Shown here one piece after another: positions 2,337-43,432 of a stretch of DNA of 43,640 nt; position 1 is the first letter of the stretch, and the number at the start of each line of letters is the position of its first letter. Made by a program: the position numbers and the translations under genes. The DNA lies in NCBI GenBank assembly GCA_903839855.1, contig CAIMEB010000047.1:1-43640 (forward strand), in the 5' to 3' direction. The stretch comes from an uncultured Methylococcaceae bacterium (GTDB taxonomy: Bacteria > Pseudomonadota > Gammaproteobacteria > Methylococcales > Methylomonadaceae). Below the pieces are notes generated by a model. The model was not told where the DNA came from. It ran no database searches and saw only the letters and a list, made by a program, of their open reading frames with translations.

Positions 2337-5030
2337 TTAGAAATTTAACGTTAAAGTAGCGCGAACCATTCTCGGCTCAACGGGGTGTTTCATGATACCG
2401 GTCTGAGGTGAAGTACCAGTCGGGTAAGCATATTGATAGGCATAGGCAACATCGTTGGCAGTTGAGTTGAAAATATTAAAGAGATCGACTTCCAGTTTAT
2501 AGTCATGTTGTTTATAACCGGCATCCAAATTGACGATACTGGTATTGCCGGCCCAATAGGTTCCCGATGGATCTAGGGGAACATCGCCGAAATGCCGCAA
2601 ACGCAGGGTGCCAAACAAACCATTAGGGGCTACGATGGTCGCACCGGCACTGATAACCCTACCAACCGAGTTGGGCACATACGCATTAGTTTCACCGCTT
2701 GGGTTTGCCGCATAACGGGCAGAAGTTAACGCCAAGTCTGCATCCAGTGTCAGCCAAGTGGTCGGCTTGTAGTAATTAGTCCATTCAATGCCGTAACGTT
2801 GAGACCTGCCATTAACAGTGGTCGTGCCATTATCACCAGTAAACACCAGTTCTTGACTGCTTTGTAGCCACCACAGTGCAAGCGTACTGTTCAGTTTTGG
2901 GATAAAGTTACTGCGTATTCCAAACTCAGCACCGTGTGACCCAGCCATCAGCGTTACTGGACTCATTGTGCTGCCATCACCGCCAATACGGGAGCCATCA
3001 GCGGGATTTAGTTTAAGCATCGTGCCTCGGGCATCGTTAGAATGGAAGCCTTCTCCGATATTAAAGAAATATTCGGTATCGTACCAAGGACCCAGGATGA
3101 TGCTCAATTTGGGGCTTAGCATCGCTTTTGAGCGATTGCCAGAGTTGGCCGCATTGATCAAGGGGTTGTGAGTTGTATTATCAAGTTGCGTCACTTCATT
3201 ATTGATAAAATCGCCTCGTAACCCGGCAATAGTGCGTAATTTGTTTAGCCAATAGGTTTGATTTTTGAAATAAATGCCTGCCGAGGTTTCGCTAACATTG
3301 TTAAGACTGACGGTACTGAAATACTGCCTGTTAACGGTGTTATCTAGCCCTAAGCCCATGATTTGATCATTACGAACCTGTAATCCCACAGTATTATCCA
3401 TATCAAAGTTGAATAAGCGGTTGTTATGGGTATGTTCGATTGAGCCGCCGGTCTGCACCCGATGTTCAAACTGGTGTATCTGGTCACCACTAACAGGATT
3501 ACTTAGATAGCCGGTAAAATTGGAAAACAAATTGACGTCATAATACAGCGCATAGAGATTGGCCTCATTTTTCCAGTGATCGCCCTTGTTCCAGAGATTA
3601 CTTGATAAGCTATAGCGGTTTGTATTGCCGCCATCGCTCGGGTCTATCGTGCCATATAGTCCCAAGCTACCATTATTAATAGATGCCTGTGGGATTTGAT
3701 TGGTTGCTGTCCAACTGTTACTGTAGCCCTTGGCGTTAACAGACAGACCCCAGTTAGCTTCATTCAGGCTGTAACGAACCATGCCGTTAAATTTCCTGGA
3801 GCCTTCGGGTTGTTGCCAGACACCATTATAAGTATTAAATTCACCCGCATAGAGCAAGTCGCCATGACCCACCTTATTGGAATTAGCAATCAGCCCACGG
3901 TAATAACCAAACTCACCGCCCGTAAACTTTAAAATACCTTGAGGCAATTTATCAATAGTAAACATTTTTGAATACCCGGCTGCTGAGAAATCGCCGACCT
4001 CTGCATAATACGGCCCTTTACCGTATTCAATATGATTGACCAATTCGGGAATAACACTATTGATATCCATATAGCCTTGTCCATGCGCATGAGTCGGCAT
4101 ATTCATCGGAATACCATCGACATAAGTGGTAAAGTCTGTGCCATGATCCAGATTATAACCACGCAAGAAATATTGATTAGCCTTACCAGAGCCACTGTGC
4201 TGGGTTGCTAATACACCGGGTATTATTTCTTCCAGTTCGCCGTTACGTGACAGTGGTCGATATTCAAATTGAGCCTGATCAACTTTGCCTTGTGAGGCTG
4301 ATCCCGTCATACCGAGAAGATTATCTTTTCGTCTATTACTTTTTACAGTTATTTCTTCAAGTTCTACAGGATCATCATTATTAACTTCCTGTTTGGATTT
4401 TACTGTCGTCTTGGTGACTTCAGGGGTGATAACTTCTGTTTCTTGAGCATTGACGTTACTGCCAATAAAAAATGCAAAAGCGAATGCTAAAAAACGGGCT
4501 GTTGCAATACCCGCGCAATGTAACAACAAGGTAGCGAATACAAATCCGAATGTATAAGACATTAAACTCGCTGAAGCGGAGATTTCCTGACCATGTGCAT
4601 AGCCATGAAAAAAGGCAAAGAAAGCAACGATCAGGATATTTATCCAATGCGTGAATTGTACTTTTCGAACGATAAAGACGCTAAAGACCAGGCCGGAAAG
4701 CAGGATCATTATCTCCACACTCGGTATAGCAACGCTGGCCACACCCGCAAGACCTCCCAGACTCATGATACTCACAAACGTAAGCGGCAATAGCCAAATA
4801 GCCGAGCCTCGGAGTTGAGCGGCCCAAAATCCGACTGTAATCATGGTAAGAATATGATCCCATCCCTGTAGAGGATGATCAAAACCATGACTCCAATCGT
4901 TGTTCTGAGCAAGAAGGGTTGTTGAAACTTTAATCAGTGGAAAAGAAAAGAAGATGAGCAAACTGAGTGCTAACTGATAGCCAGGAAAATTAGACCCGTA
5001 ACAAGCCGGATTATGTTTTTTATTTAACAT
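2337..5030 (-). CDS. HupE/UreJ-type metal permease fused to TonB-dependent receptor
   Basis: Residues 1-175 (numbering from the start at 5030) form about six membrane segments with HPLQGWDH at 52-59 and FHGYAHG at 141-147. These are the metal-binding signatures of HupE/UreJ nickel/cobalt-type permeases of the inner membrane. Residues 178-195 are a hydrophobic stretch ending SNVNA before QETE, which reads as a Sec signal peptide with an AxA-like site. A complete TonB-dependent outer-membrane receptor follows: TonB-box-like EEITVK near 225, a plug with FLRGYNLDHGTDF, and a 22-strand barrel ending in TLNF. The ATG at 5030 is preferred over 5051 because GAGG sits 6 bases upstream. The total of 897 residues is roughly one permease plus one receptor. 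Processing at the internal site would yield two proteins. The substrate (Ni, Co or another metal complex) is inference. A merged pair of once separate genes is the alternative view. Confidence 0.8.
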   Translation of the reverse strand: MLNKKHNPACYGSNFPGYQLALSLLIFFSFPLIKVSTTLLAQNNDWSHGFDHPLQGWDHILTMITVGFWAAQLRGSAIWLLPLTFVSIMSLGGLAGVASVAIPSVEIMILLSGLVFSVFIVRKVQFTHWINILIVAFFAFFHGYAHGQEISASASLMSYTFGFVFATLLLHCAGIATARFLAFAFAFFIGSNVNAQETEVITPEVTKTTVKSKQEVNNDDPVELEEITVKSNRRKDNLLGMTGSASQGKVDQAQFEYRPLSRNGELEEIIPGVLATQHSGSGKANQYFLRGYNLDHGTDFTTYVDGIPMNMPTHAHGQGYMDINSVIPELVNHIEYGKGPYYAEVGDFSAAGYSKMFTIDKLPQGILKFTGGEFGYYRGLIANSNKVGHGDLLYAGEFNTYNGVWQQPEGSRKFNGMVRYSLNEANWGLSVNAKGYSNSWTATNQIPQASINNGSLGLYGTIDPSDGGNTNRYSLSSNLWNKGDHWKNEANLYALYYDVNLFSNFTGYLSNPVSGDQIHQFEHRVQTGGSIEHTHNNRLFNFDMDNTVGLQVRNDQIMGLGLDNTVNRQYFSTVSLNNVSETSAGIYFKNQTYWLNKLRTIAGLRGDFINNEVTQLDNTTHNPLINAANSGNRSKAMLSPKLSIILGPWYDTEYFFNIGEGFHSNDARGTMLKLNPADGSRIGGDGSTMSPVTLMAGSHGAEFGIRSNFIPKLNSTLALWWLQSSQELVFTGDNGTTTVNGRSQRYGIEWTNYYKPTTWLTLDADLALTSARYAANPSGETNAYVPNSVGRVISAGATIVAPNGLFGTLRLRHFGDVPLDPSGTYWAGNTSIVNLDAGYKQHDYKLEVDLFNIFNSTANDVAYAYQYAYPTGTSPQTGIMKHPVEPRMVRATLTLNF

Positions 5031-5522
5031 CAGATGCCTCAATAGTACCAATGGAGTTGCTTGTCATTATAACCTTGATAAAGATCTAAGTTATCAGCTT
5101 TCAGGATTTAAGGTCGCCGGATACTGCCAGTTATTTCAAGCACTGGAATTGCTATCTGAATGCTCGCTATTCAACGATAAGCTGACTTTCACTGAAAACT
5201 GGCGAATGTCTTTTGATGGTACTTAAGAGCCTTTCATTCTTGGCACCAATAAGATAGTATTTATAGAAATAGCCATTACCAGCCGCTTTGTAAACATTAA
5301 TTTTTCTTGTTGTCGTTAAAATAGCACGTGACCATAATAACCAGAGGTCGCTTTCACACAAGAAAAGGTGATTGGGTTTCACTGGAACAGGCAAAAGGTT
5401 TTAACAAGAATAGGCCATCAGCAGTAACTAACGTCCTAGCCACTTGGTTTCTAAAAAATTTAAGTTACTCTGACTCTTTTAGTTATATGATAGATAATCA
5501 AAAAGACAGGAAGAAACGCTCA
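5031..5522. other. Divergent promoter region between the receptor gene and the exported protein
   Basis: About 490 bases separate two divergent starts. I see no supported gene. The minus-strand ORF at 5167-5394 and the N-terminal extension of the plus-strand ORF (from 5328) have no recognisable features and start without ribosome binding sites. No cobalamin or NiCo riboswitch core could be recognised by eye, although a metal-responsive element would be plausible ahead of the permease-receptor gene. Confidence 0.4.
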
Positions 5523-17818: not shown

Positions 17819-18724
17819 TTACACTATCTCCCTGGCTTTTACAAAAGCTTCTCTAAAATCAAGATATAAGGGCTTATCCGTTTCCAGCATCAGTTTTAAC
17901 ATAGTATGCTGTAACTGATACTTAACATTCCCTACTGCCAAGGCACCCACAGCCACCGCACCCTTTGAGTTAGTCGCATGTATTAAAGGCGCACCTAGAT
18001 CATTGCGCTTAATTCCTTCTATACCCAAGGGAGGAACGGCATTGACATCACCCACCACTTTCAGCTGGGTAGCCTCCTTAAGTACATTAGCACTTAACAC
18101 TTGCACACCGGCCTTTGCAGTACAAAAAATAATATCTGCATTAACTATCAATTTAGCCTTATCGTTATCAGTCGTTGCAACAGCTCCATTTAAGGCGCAG
18201 CCGAAGCGACGATTATAGGCCTTAGCAACATCTATTGCCGTCTCCACTGACAAATGATCAACTAAAATAGTTCCTGCACCTGCTAAAGAAGCAATAATAC
18301 CGGTTGCAATACCTACAGGCCCAGTTCCACCAAAAACTAAAACCCGGCTATCCTGTAAATCCTTACCGTGCTTTTCCTTTAACTCATTCTCTACACAAGC
18401 CACTAAGGCAGCCGCTGTCGTAAATGCGCCACTGGGATCAGCAAAAACGGATACTTCAAAAGGGGGAACCATAGCCTGATGACTAGCATCCAGCATATCC
18501 ATTGCCAACGCTAAATCACGACCACCAATAAAAATTCCTGTGCGTTTTACACCCGATGGCCCACGAGAAAAGATAGCATCTTGAGTCAGCCTGTTAACAC
18601 TATCCAATTTCACATTGCTATAAGGCATAAGCACATCAAACCCAGCATCCAACGCCATGTTAACATCAAATGGACTATTGTTTGGCGTGGGGTCAAGCAT
18701 GTGAAGAATGCTACGTTTCTCCAT
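17819..18724 (-). CDS. mtdB: NAD(P)-dependent methylene-tetrahydromethanopterin dehydrogenase, MtdB type (copy 2)
   Basis: MtdB oxidises methylene-H4MPT to methenyl-H4MPT with NAD(P)+, a step of formaldehyde oxidation in methylotrophs. The 301-residue protein begins MEKRSILHML and SPFDVNMALDAGF. It has the GGRDLALAMDML segment, the binding-site segment PPFEVSVFADPSGAFTTAA, the Rossmann loop VFGGTGPVG and the DVNAVPPLGIEGI signature. From memory, the N-terminal block (SILHML, DAGF, LTQD, IFSR) is closer to characterised MtdB than copy 1 is, and unlike MtdA, which starts with a different sequence. AGGA lies about 7 bases upstream. It follows copy 1 by 55 bases, so the pair is probably one operon. 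Confidence 0.85.
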   Translation of the reverse strand: MEKRSILHMLDPTPNNSPFDVNMALDAGFDVLMPYSNVKLDSVNRLTQDAIFSRGPSGVKRTGIFIGGRDLALAMDMLDASHQAMVPPFEVSVFADPSGAFTTAAALVACVENELKEKHGKDLQDSRVLVFGGTGPVGIATGIIASLAGAGTILVDHLSVETAIDVAKAYNRRFGCALNGAVATTDNDKAKLIVNADIIFCTAKAGVQVLSANVLKEATQLKVVGDVNAVPPLGIEGIKRNDLGAPLIHATNSKGAVAVGALAVGNVKYQLQHTMLKLMLETDKPLYLDFREAFVKAREIV

Positions 18725-18779: not shown

Positions 18780-19688
18780 TTATTGACTGGACTTAATGTA
18801 TTCTCTAGCGACTTCAAAAGCATGTTCAAAATGAAGATAAACCGGTTTCTCGCTGCTAATCATCTTTTTCAATAAACGGTTTTGCGCCTGATACTTAACA
18901 TTACCAATCGCCAAAGCACCAATGCCTACAGCACCACTTTTAGAGCCTTCAATAGGTGTACCATTATGGAACGCATCAACGCCAGCAATCCCGGCAGGTG
19001 GCACAGCATTAACATCGGCTGCCACTTTTAAGTTAGGTGCAAGTGCGATCAACTCGGCACTTAACAACTCAATGCCCGCTGCTCCGGTTGCGAAAACTAT
19101 ATCAGCTGTTTGCATGTATTCGGCCTTATCCGCATCAGCACCAGCAGTAATGGTAATTTTGCCGTCACCAAACTCATTGCTGCACAAATCGGCAACATGC
19201 TGAGCTTTTTCTAACTGTCTGCCAATAATTCTTACGTTGGCACCTGCTTGAGCAGAAATAACAGCGGCTGCTTGACCTACTGGCCCCGTACCACCTAAGG
19301 CAATAATGTTTTTTCCTTCCAGGGTGGTATTAAATTTTGTAATTAATTCATGCTCTACCGCAGCAACCATACCCGCTGCTGTAGTAAAAGCACCACTAGG
19401 ATCAGCAAAAACAGACACTTCAAACGGTGGCACCATTGAGCGTTTAGCCGTTTTCAACATATCCATTGCCTGCTTGGTATCACGACCGCCAATAAAAATG
19501 CCGGTACGCTTTAAATTCTTGGTGCTTCGTGAAAAAATAGCATCTTGTACTAAACCTTGAACTTCACTCGGCTCAACATTGATATAAGGTAATGCTGAAA
19601 CCCAACCCGCGTCCATCGCCATATTAACGTCAAAAGGACTTAAATTTTTAGCTGTAGTTAGCATGTGTAAAATAAATGGTTTTTCCAT
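18780..19688 (-). CDS. mtdB: NAD(P)-dependent methylene-tetrahydromethanopterin dehydrogenase, MtdB type (copy 1)
   Basis: The 302-residue paralogue of the downstream gene shares the same layout: SPFDVNMAMDAGW, RTGIFIGGRD, PPFEVSVFADPSGAFTTAAG, the dinucleotide loop ALGGTGPVG, DVNAVPPAGIAGVD and GALAIGNVKYQ. The two copies are clearly homologous along their whole length but differ widely in the region 145-190 that lines the NAD(P) pocket (VRIIGRQLEKAQ here versus TILVDHLSVETA in copy 2). Arg after the second strand is often associated with NADP binding, so coenzyme preference may differ; this is inference. A strong site, AAGGAG, precedes the ATG. It is the first gene of the pair. Confidence 0.85.
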   Translation of the reverse strand: MEKPFILHMLTTAKNLSPFDVNMAMDAGWVSALPYINVEPSEVQGLVQDAIFSRSTKNLKRTGIFIGGRDTKQAMDMLKTAKRSMVPPFEVSVFADPSGAFTTAAGMVAAVEHELITKFNTTLEGKNIIALGGTGPVGQAAAVISAQAGANVRIIGRQLEKAQHVADLCSNEFGDGKITITAGADADKAEYMQTADIVFATGAAGIELLSAELIALAPNLKVAADVNAVPPAGIAGVDAFHNGTPIEGSKSGAVGIGALAIGNVKYQAQNRLLKKMISSEKPVYLHFEHAFEVAREYIKSSQ

Positions 19689-41859: not shown

Positions 41860-41936
41860 GCCCTGATAGCTCAGTAGGATAGAGCAGTCCCCTCCTAAGG
41901 GACAGGTCGGTGGTTCGAATCCACTTTGGGGCACCA
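41860..41936 (+). tRNA. tRNA-Arg (anticodon CCU)
   Basis: The 77-base sequence has an acceptor stem GCCCTGA/TTGGGGC with two G-T pairs, D arm AGCTCAGTAGGATAGAGC, and anticodon loop CTCCTAA between TCCC and GGGA, giving CCU. The T arm is GGTGGTTCGAATCCACT, and CCA is encoded. A TACAAT hexamer 10 bases upstream may be its -10. tRNA-Arg(CCU) is a common integration site, and an integrase gene follows. Confidence 0.95.
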
Positions 41937-42004: not shown

Positions 42005-42031
42005 ATGTCCAATGAGGTGCAATAGGGTTTG

Positions 42032-42060
42032 TTGACATTCAAATATTATGACGGTATAAA
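42032..42060 (+). promoter_or_regulatory. Sigma-70-type promoter of the integrase gene
   Basis: A perfect TTGACA at 42032-42037 and TATAAA at 42055-42060 are separated by exactly 17 bases. The predicted transcript would begin near 42067 and give a leader of about 30 bases before the integrase ATG at 42098. Confidence 0.8.
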
Positions 42061-42099
42061 TGACGGCATATTCAGTTTATCTAAATCTTATACCGTCAT
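42048..42099. repeat. 12-bp inverted repeat overlapping the integrase promoter (putative operator)
   Basis: ATGACGGTATAA at 42048-42059 and its exact reverse complement TTATACCGTCAT at 42088-42099 flank the transcription start. A direct partial copy, ATGACGGCATA, lies at 42060-42070. One arm covers the -10 element and the other overlaps the start codon, as expected for an autoregulatory or excisionase-type operator, or for a leader hairpin. Confidence 0.7.
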
Positions 42100-43318
42100 G
42101 AGCATATCAGATACCGCCATAAAAGCCGCCAAAGTCAACCCCGACAAGGCTTATAAGCTACCCGATGGAAAGGGCATGTATTTATTAATCCATCCTAATG
42201 GAAGTAAATATTTCAGGCTTGATTATCGGTTTAATGACAAACGCAAAACATTAGCTTTAGGTGTGTACCCAGAAACATCCTTGAAACAAGCAAGGGAGAA
42301 ACGAGAAGCCGCACGCAAGTTATTAGCTGATGGTATCGACCCCAACGAAAACAAAAAAGCTGTTAAATCATCAAAAGCAGAAAGCGCCTCAAATAGTTTT
42401 GAGGTTGTGGCTCGTGAATGGTTTGAGCGCAAAATGATGGACAAATCAGAGCATCATCAAAAGCGTGCAATGGGATTATTCAGAAAAGATTTATTTCCTT
42501 ATCTTGGAGCTAAACCGATCAATGAAATAAAAGCTGTTGAGTTGCTGGCCGCGTTAAGACGGATAGAGGCTAGAAATGCAGTTGAGACAGCGCACAGAGC
42601 TTTGCAGATTTGCGGACAGGTTTTCCGTTATGCCATTGCAACCGGACGCACAGAGCGAGATATAACCCCAGACTTACGAGGATCATTAGCATCGGTCAAA
42701 GCTGGACATTTTGCAGCAATTACAGACCCCCAAGAGGCTGGACAATTGTTAAGAGCGATTGATGCTTATACGGGCTCTTTTTGTGTAAAGTCAGCCTTAC
42801 AGCTTGCACCATTAGTGTTTGTTAGACCTAGTGAGTTACGCCAAGCAGAATGGGCGCACATTGATTTTGAGGCTAAAGAATGGCGTTATCTAGTTTCTAA
42901 AACACAAACAGAGCACATTGTACCTTTATCTATTCAATCGGTTGCTATTCTTCAAGCAATACGACCGCTTACAGGTGATGGGCGCTATGTCTTTCCAAGC
43001 GCACGCACCCCCAATGGATCAAGGGCAATGAGTGACATGGCTATGCTGGCGGCATTAAGGAGAATGGGTTTTGAAAAGTCAGAAATGAGCGCACACGGTT
43101 TTAGGGCAATGGCTAGGACTATACTTGATGAAAAGCTGAAGTTTCGAGTTGATTTTATAGAGCACCAATTAGCGCACGCGGTAAAGGATGTTAATGGCCG
43201 CGCTTATAACCGGACAGCACACCTAGAGGAAAGGCACAAGATGATGCAATCATGGGCAGATTACTTAGACGGACTAAAGAATGGCGCTCAGGTATTAGAG
43301 TTTAAAAAGATTAGTTGA
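42098..43318 (+). CDS. int: P4-type tyrosine integrase
   Basis: The start at 42098 gives 406 residues, the normal length for this group. The N-terminal DUF4102-type arm-binding domain reads MSISDTAIKAAKVNPDKAYK, then LPDGKGMYLLIHPNGSKYFRLDYR and TLALGVYPETSLKQAREKRE. After a SAM-like core-binding domain the catalytic box FVRPSELRQAEWAHID supplies the first Arg. HIVPLSIQSV contains the beta strand pair, SAHGFRAMART is the HxxR box, QLAHA gives the third basic residue and GRAYNRTAHLEER the nucleophile Tyr. All catalytic residues appear intact, so the gene is probably functional. The ATG overlaps an inverted-repeat arm and has no clear ribosome binding site. Confidence 0.93.
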   Translation: MSISDTAIKAAKVNPDKAYKLPDGKGMYLLIHPNGSKYFRLDYRFNDKRKTLALGVYPETSLKQAREKREAARKLLADGIDPNENKKAVKSSKAESASNSFEVVAREWFERKMMDKSEHHQKRAMGLFRKDLFPYLGAKPINEIKAVELLAALRRIEARNAVETAHRALQICGQVFRYAIATGRTERDITPDLRGSLASVKAGHFAAITDPQEAGQLLRAIDAYTGSFCVKSALQLAPLVFVRPSELRQAEWAHIDFEAKEWRYLVSKTQTEHIVPLSIQSVAILQAIRPLTGDGRYVFPSARTPNGSRAMSDMAMLAALRRMGFEKSEMSAHGFRAMARTILDEKLKFRVDFIEHQLAHAVKDVNGRAYNRTAHLEERHKMMQSWADYLDGLKNGAQVLEFKKIS

Positions 43319-43337
43319 ATCTGCAGTATAATTAAAT

Positions 43338-43394
43338 TTAACCGGATAGCCCGACGGGGCAACAAATAGGAGTCATTACCCTCTTTCCGGTTAA
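43338..43394 (+). ncRNA. C4-like antisense RNA (P1 C4 / P4 CI type), putative
   Basis: A perfect 9-bp outer stem TTAACCGGA (43338-43346) / TCCGGTTAA (43386-43394) encloses a GCCC-gacg-GGGC hairpin (43349-43360), then a single-stranded-like GCAACAAATAGGAGTCATTACCC stretch. The arrangement CCGGATAGCCC..GGGGCAACA..GGAGTCA..ACC..CCGG matches my recollection of the C4/CI immunity RNA next to P4-like integrases. The loop segment TCATTAC (43373-43379) is complementary to GTAATGA at 43403-43409, consistent with antisense control of a downstream start. Confidence 0.55.
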
Positions 43395-43432
43395 TCCCTT
43401 TAGTAATGATTACACTTAATGGAGTGTTTAGC

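Follow-up and report, generated by a model that had tools for sequence, protein, structure and literature searches.

The window, by which we mean the whole stretch of DNA analysed (positions 1-43,640 of contig CAIMEB010000047.1, assembly GCA_903839855.1; 43,640 nucleotides), derives from an uncultured Methylococcaceae bacterium. On its reverse strand, at positions 2337..5030, lies a hupE-TonB-dependent receptor (TBDR) fusion gene that starts with ATG and is open through to its stop, encoding 897 residues, the last of which is Phe; an upstream in-frame TTG at 5051 would give a frame of 904 residues. The sequence-only reading had described one uninterrupted frame in which a HupE/UreJ permease, with HPLQGWDH and FHGYAHG, precedes a complete TonB receptor, and this description holds, Pfam recognising both HupE_UreJ and Plug. 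The parts described below all lie on the reverse strand.

The permease moiety, residues 1-195 (4446..5030), matches HupE_UreJ (PF04955) at residues 43-182 (E 7.5e-43, 146.5 bits, above the cut-off of 23) and provides the single PF04955 match of the window genome at E <= 0.001. HPLQGWDH (residues 52-59, 4854..4877) is an instance of HPxxGxDH, the HupE signature as defined in PMC7689651, and FHGYAHG (residues 141-147, 4590..4610) of an FHG-HG motif; each is kept in 26 of 27 distinct fused frames, and missing in a decayed one discussed below. Hydropathy and charges fit six helices behind an N-terminal signal segment. In the fused frames of one HupE clade (L008, L076-L086 and L090-L092; L numbers denote loci, G numbers genomes), removal of an N-terminal signal peptide would leave a His as first residue (VQA/HTG, YA/HPG), and His1 is described in other permease-linked metal proteins (PMC12537917).

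The receptor half begins with a linker, residues 196-243 (4302..4445), which block identities mark as the region of receptor exchange and which has a pLDDT below 50 in the AlphaFold model. VELEEITV (4344..4367) stands where a TonB box is expected, and we take it to be a TonB-box-like element. The plug domain (PF07715) is found at residues 249-352 (3975..4286; E 5.5e-11, 43.4 bits, above the cut-off of 23.9), and the mature receptor, plug and predicted barrel together, would cover residues 196-897 (2340..4445). The AlphaFold model (25 rows, mean pLDDT 66.5) has helices to residue 193, an unordered linker to about residue 246, and then a barrel; its HupE part shows six helices overall, the last one long and of low confidence (pLDDT about 40), as if helices 6 and 7 were joined. 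Searched with Foldseek, the predicted barrel gave PqqU (E 4.9e-32) and YncD (E 1.4e-29) as best matches, followed by FoxA, FhuA and other TonB-dependent receptors. As modelled, residues 196-897 have the plug and outer-membrane beta barrel of a TonB-dependent receptor.

With regard to the surroundings, a 77-nt direct repeat (95%) occupies 1440-1516 and 2258-2334, in which the 3' end of a presumably folP-like gene is duplicated right before the fusion gene's stop; a fragment resembling an FGE-sulfatase separates the two copies. At 42029-43408, a frame that we take to be integrase-like adjoins an int-alpA RNA match and a tRNA at 41860, and this region is likely the edge of an integrated element. 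Two similar tandem frames (17819-18724 and 18780-19688) presumably encode methylene-H4MPT dehydrogenase-like proteins, and genes that we assume to belong to the serine cycle are also present in the window.

The search of the methanotroph family covered 237 genomes, 195 of which gave a match. Among the matches listed, at least 25 single matches extend over both parts, in at least 24 genomes including that of the window, and four more fused genomes were read at the sequence level (G086, G091, G027 and G054, the last ended by its contig end). This brings the fusion to at least 28 genomes, the window's included, and at least 10 genera of one methanotroph family. Frames were read in 25 of these 28, and G162, G163 and G159 are known by the match. 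In G160, a TAG lies near the N-terminus and the frame starts after it. Split matches in open frames of 920-945 residues suggest the fusion in G087, G100 and G101 also, which would bring in an 11th genus, and a decayed fusion in G068 is counted separately. In all, the loci fetched hold 27 distinct fused frames, which stem from 26 genomes and include the decayed one.

The sequence-only reading had kept a recent fusion through loss of a stop codon as an alternative, and a sequencing or assembly error between the domains is a further one; that the window contig belongs to a draft of 294 contigs could speak for either. However, the fusion spans at least 10 genera, and it is also found in assemblies of few contigs, namely, about one in G163 and G160, two in G158, G159 and G157, three in G020, and four in G056 (in G163 and G159, by match). 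Since the same fusion occurs in many separate assemblies and both halves show dN/dS values well below 1 in the pairs tested, it is due neither to chance nor to error, and we regard error or recent stop loss as ruled out for practical purposes. Relatives do not always have two genes: at least 27 other genomes carry the fusion, and a comparison of relatives found both states in the family.

To look for fusions beyond the family, 369 genomes of the class (99 with a match) and 398 of the phylum (133 with a match), two sets that overlap, were screened for PF04955. These searches recovered the family's own fusions in G000 and G159. Among the matches listed, five long open frames were inspected (L161 and L174-L177), and none is fused, because HupE forms the C-terminal end of each; frames with weaker matches are listed besides these five in G786 (732 residues), G806 (579 residues) and G522 (514 residues). 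No HupE-receptor fusion was described in the literature that was searched.

In the window, the last HupE helix, residues 179-195 (4446..4496), consists of an R, a hydrophobic core and GSNVNA, and the junction reads ARFLAFAFAFFIGSNVNA then QETE. Every one of the 27 fused frames has, in fixed register, a short hydrophobic stretch that closes the permease, followed by [A/V]-x-[A/G] and then Q, E or D. Residue -1 is A in 26 frames and G in one (entropy 0.23 bits) and residue -3 is A in 16 and V in 11 (0.98 bits), whereas the position between them varies freely among Y, N, H, S, F and L (1.98 bits); residue +1 is Q in 20, E in 6 and D in 1. A Gly occupies residue -6 in 24 of the 27, and the loop preceding the helix carries K or R in 24 of 26. 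In 27/27 frames, the alignment thus shows the n-h-c build and the small -3 and -1 residues of a signal peptidase I substrate, with the predicted cut between A195 and Q196 (4443..4448). That the last segment of the permease is a credible signal peptide before QETE, as had been claimed from the single sequence, is borne out to this extent by the relatives and by the charge pattern. Two features count against such a signal peptide, namely, the hydrophobic core of just 10-11 residues or so and the two frames out of 26 without a preceding K or R. Ordinary HupEs, for which we took the top-scoring loci from the class-wide and phylum-wide screens (L119 and L138 being from the same order or family), stop 16-37 residues beyond the matched stretch in 59 cases out of 59, which leaves room for the last helix and hardly anything else.

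The charges of the loops bear on the orientation of this helix. In the fused frames, the mean number of K+R is 1.04, 2.88 and 0.92 in the loops 71-76, 120-130 and 172-179, which are expected to be cytoplasmic, versus 0.08, 0, 0 and 0.12 in the loops 41-60, 97-104, 141-156 and after residue 190. By the positive-inside rule, these values would put the last HupE helix in the Nin-Cout orientation and hence send the part that follows to the periplasm. Such an orientation agrees with the description of HupE as a precursor that matures to six membrane domains (PMC4284471, PMC7689651).

A protein that remained uncut, either in one membrane or bridging both, is compatible with the uninterrupted frame, and cleavage itself is a prediction. 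Against this stand the peptidase motif kept in 27/27 frames and the length of the linker: the cut site and the plug motif are separated by 33-49 residues in the fused frames, i.e., at most about 17 nm when fully stretched at 0.35 nm per residue, and the periplasm measures roughly 20 nm. With a linker of this length, an uncut protein could probably not bridge an inner-membrane HupE and a folded outer-membrane barrel, and we consider an uncut protein highly improbable.

We therefore turn to the reading in which the window gene encodes a natural polyprotein that signal peptidase I would cleave to give HupE and receptor, and which, judging from the sequences compared, is quite likely. The HupE part would insert into the inner membrane via the Sec route, and its last helix, being Nin-Cout and having the n-h-c build of a signal peptide, would start the export of the receptor behind it. 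Signal peptidase I would then cut after A195, leaving HupE (1-195) in the inner membrane, and the freed receptor (196-897) would reach the outer membrane, where it would be opened by TonB. One message would in this way provide both gates, outer and inner, of a single metal-uptake route, synthesised in a one-to-one ratio. We infer the cutting by signal peptidase I, the equal amounts and the shared substrate. The conserved junction, a topology in the right sense, purifying selection on both parts and the existence of relatives with separate genes all lend support to this polyprotein reading, as first put forward from the sequence.

Selection was estimated as dN/dS by NG86 on 17 fused-gene pairs of our choosing, the pair with the decayed gene being left out of the ranges. 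The values are 0.03-0.17 for the HupE part (16 pairs) and 0.04-0.19 for the receptor part (15 pairs, one being saturated); they are rough figures, since many dS values exceed 1, and by this measure both halves of the fusion are under purifying selection. The linker is looser (0 to 0.59), and so is the segment of 22-23 codons comprising the helix and the site (0 to 0.69), which counts against the polyprotein reading, as do the low confidence of the last helices in the AlphaFold model and the TAG near the N-terminus in G160.

It is conceivable that the HupE part is a mere long leader that exports the receptor and has lost metal transport. The decayed relative G068 (L099 / L031:1977-4319) speaks for it, having most of its HupE part lost or out of frame, with GSNVNA-QETEV still in frame with an open receptor. 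This receptor is 94% identical to that of the window, with a dN/dS of 0.07 between them. The decay of HupE next to an open receptor implies that the pair is not always needed together, and G068 may represent either a receptor that the remnant signal still serves or a gene in the course of being lost; G070, the third of the close relatives (95%), is uninformative, its sequence starting inside the receptor at a contig end. On the other hand, a leader without transport function does not accord with the low dN/dS of the HupE part in the 16 pairs without G068, with the retention of HPxxGxDH and FHG-HG in all but the decayed frame, or with the fact that no other PF04955 match serves the window genome. 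We judge it unlikely.

Separate translation of the receptor from an internal start within the hupE part is another way of obtaining two proteins. In-frame ATG, GTG and TTG codons do precede the helix, with an ATG at reference position 150 in 15 of the 27 frames, but no start codon at residues 145-185 is common to all frames and one codon alone is preceded by a simple Shine-Dalgarno-like string; the latter test is weak because gene starts themselves often show weak strings. The only ATG of the window gene in this range (residue 157) leaves two hydrophobic segments before the site, and an ATG at residue 227, found in 20 of the 27 frames and with a Shine-Dalgarno-like string in four, lies past the site and would leave the receptor without export signal. 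Internal initiation is accordingly, in our view, very unlikely.

The history of the two halves differs. In a HupE tree of 59 rows, from which two short HupEs were left out and in which two of the tailed entries duplicate genes already present, the fused label needs two changes, as it does in 200 of 200 bootstrap trees. Constraining the fused HupEs to one clade (26 vs 33 rows) actually improves the score and is not rejected (p-AU 0.62), and these trees point to one or two origins of the fused state on the HupE side. The receptor tree, a quick tree of 83 rows, requires eight changes of the fused label, or nine when the decayed gene is counted, and a single clade of fused receptors is rejected (p-AU 1.4e-4) in a test on 41 of the 83 rows that we picked after viewing the tree. 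Compared block by block, the HupE of the window protein is 62-90% identical up to residue 181 to the fused proteins of L074, L087, L088 and L089, whose receptors are just 33-47% identical to that of the window past residue 301, whereas the separate receptors of L009 and L011 share 80-90% identity with the window receptor from residue 261 onwards. The change-over falls between about residue 197 and residue 260. On these comparisons, the receptor partner was swapped repeatedly near the junction; a precursor that is cut would tolerate just such a replacement of the receptor behind an unchanged internal signal peptide. The modular junction with its exchange of partners was computed directly, as were the fusion, its spread and conservation, the site, the charge pattern and the selection on both halves.

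Other states exist in the family as well. In sister genomes, hupE and the receptor are separate genes, and the N-terminus of stand-alone receptors resembles, as judged by eye, a signal peptide of their own. HupE in sister genomes bears a C-terminal tail of roughly 125-350 residues (e.g. L045:4875-6161, L009, L010, L017, L054), with the receptor gene directly behind where checked (L009 and L045). In L045, the hupE and receptor genes overlap by ATGA and are followed by frames that we take to be TonB-, ExbB- and ExbD-like; L069:3798-5447 is one frame encoding a tailed HupE and then a second HupE domain. The tailed set comprises 33 frames from 31 genes (L009 and L037 are the same gene, as are L024 and L046), and a GxGxTSPP-like motif (FLTNGVGxTSPP-like) is present in 31 of the 33 frames (29 of the 31 genes), twice in 10 genes. 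This TSPP-type motif is conserved as a peptide, the changes at the DNA level being synonymous, while over 10 pairs the tails as a whole have a dN/dS of 0.24-0.63, compared with 0.05-0.16 for the HupE parts of these pairs, and Pfam found no domain in the three tails scanned. A loose search for a signal-peptide end matched 23 of the 33 tailed frames (e.g. QLAYA/QST, NAALA/KSA), with no fixed register, and L045 is not among them. By its sequence features, the tail looks like a nascent-chain regulator of the receptor. We tentatively propose, while thinking it rather doubtful, that the last helix of HupE acts in the family as an export signal with exchangeable passengers, either a receptor that is cut off or a TSPP tail with a possible role in stalling the ribosome and tuning the receptor gene behind. 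In both cases the outer gate would be made in step with the insertion of the inner one, through covalent one-to-one production or through a nascent chain that senses this insertion.

The substrate is approached through regulation and gene neighbourhood. HupE has been described as a cobalt transporter and found under cobalamin riboswitches (PMC7689651, PMC4284471). In the family, a cobalamin riboswitch (RF00174) lies upstream of 5 of 8 distinct stand-alone receptor loci scanned (L042:4472-4680 and L012, L014, L015, L016 and L021, with L016 and L042 being one locus), and among the three misses L013 has just about 250 bases upstream. Of 18 fused loci scanned, the one in G027 likewise lies behind RF00174 (L089:5654-5842, reverse strand), another match preceding a second, stand-alone receptor in L089, whereas none was found near the window gene or at the other 16 fused loci, nor at 12 tailed-HupE loci scanned (10 distinct, several with little sequence upstream of hupE). 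A c-di-GMP-I riboswitch match lies about 1.1 kb upstream of the fused gene in L077 (4664-4748). The B12 receptor model TIGR01779 (BtuB-like) gives the window protein 23.4 bits, far under the NCBIfam cut-off of 599.7, and the nearest solved receptors, PqqU and YncD, indicate no metal. Downstream of the fusion, thioredoxin-like and CSCC-containing genes occur in all four of L073, L074, L087 and L088, and a CopC-like gene in three, a neighbourhood (scanned with Pfam in L087) that suggests copper and speaks against cobalt. A HupE_UreJ_2-like protein is encoded downstream of the fusion in two of these four loci and upstream of it in L075 and L082. Presuming a substrate shared by both halves, we would, without confidence, rank cobalt (as a chelate) first and copper second.

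Each part is a member of a known family, and precursors that are cut are likewise of a known kind. FbcH of Bradyrhizobium japonicum is a cytochrome b/c1 precursor cut by signal peptidase, in which, as in the window fusion, an integral membrane protein is followed by an exported one in one precursor with an internal signal sequence between; the fusion shares with it the trait that two proteins encoded apart elsewhere form one frame with a signal-like sequence between them. However, both products of FbcH join one complex of the inner membrane, whereas those of the window gene would belong to two membranes, and their downstream partner has been exchanged in evolution. To our knowledge, bacterial precursors from which signal peptidase makes two working proteins are rare, and we know of none that serves both membranes of Gram-negative bacteria. 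In the literature that was searched, no inner-membrane gate was described as joined in this way to the outer-membrane gate of the same route. The fusion has PF04955 and HPxxGxDH in common with the HupE/UreJ nickel-cobalt permeases (PMC4284471, PMC7689651), of which the ordinary members stop with the last helix. Anglerase-HupE/UreJ-2 likewise combines a HupE-type permease and an extracytoplasmic metal-capture module in one polypeptide, but the module is N-terminal and flexibly linked, the permease is PF13795, and the account in PMC12537917, as far as consulted, describes no cut between them. The tailed hupE loci recall the CruR-CrtA (BfrG) copper operon of Bordetella, where an exported upstream product with a PP motif precedes a metal receptor gene (PMC9426467, PMC12914433). 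In comparison with these accounts, as far as they were consulted, the tailed HupEs have TSPP instead of RAPP, no DUF2946 in the three scanned, and a last motif that is not terminal but begins 77-163 residues short of the frame end in nearly all of them (275 in L069).

A cultured strain bearing the fusion would allow a direct test of the cut-precursor reading. If this reading is true, the gene would represent an example of a membrane helix turning into a signal peptide, and the covalent linkage would pair a receptor without assigned substrate with its permease. For the methanotrophs that carry it, the fusion would then be a simple way to match the numbers of outer receptor and inner permease.
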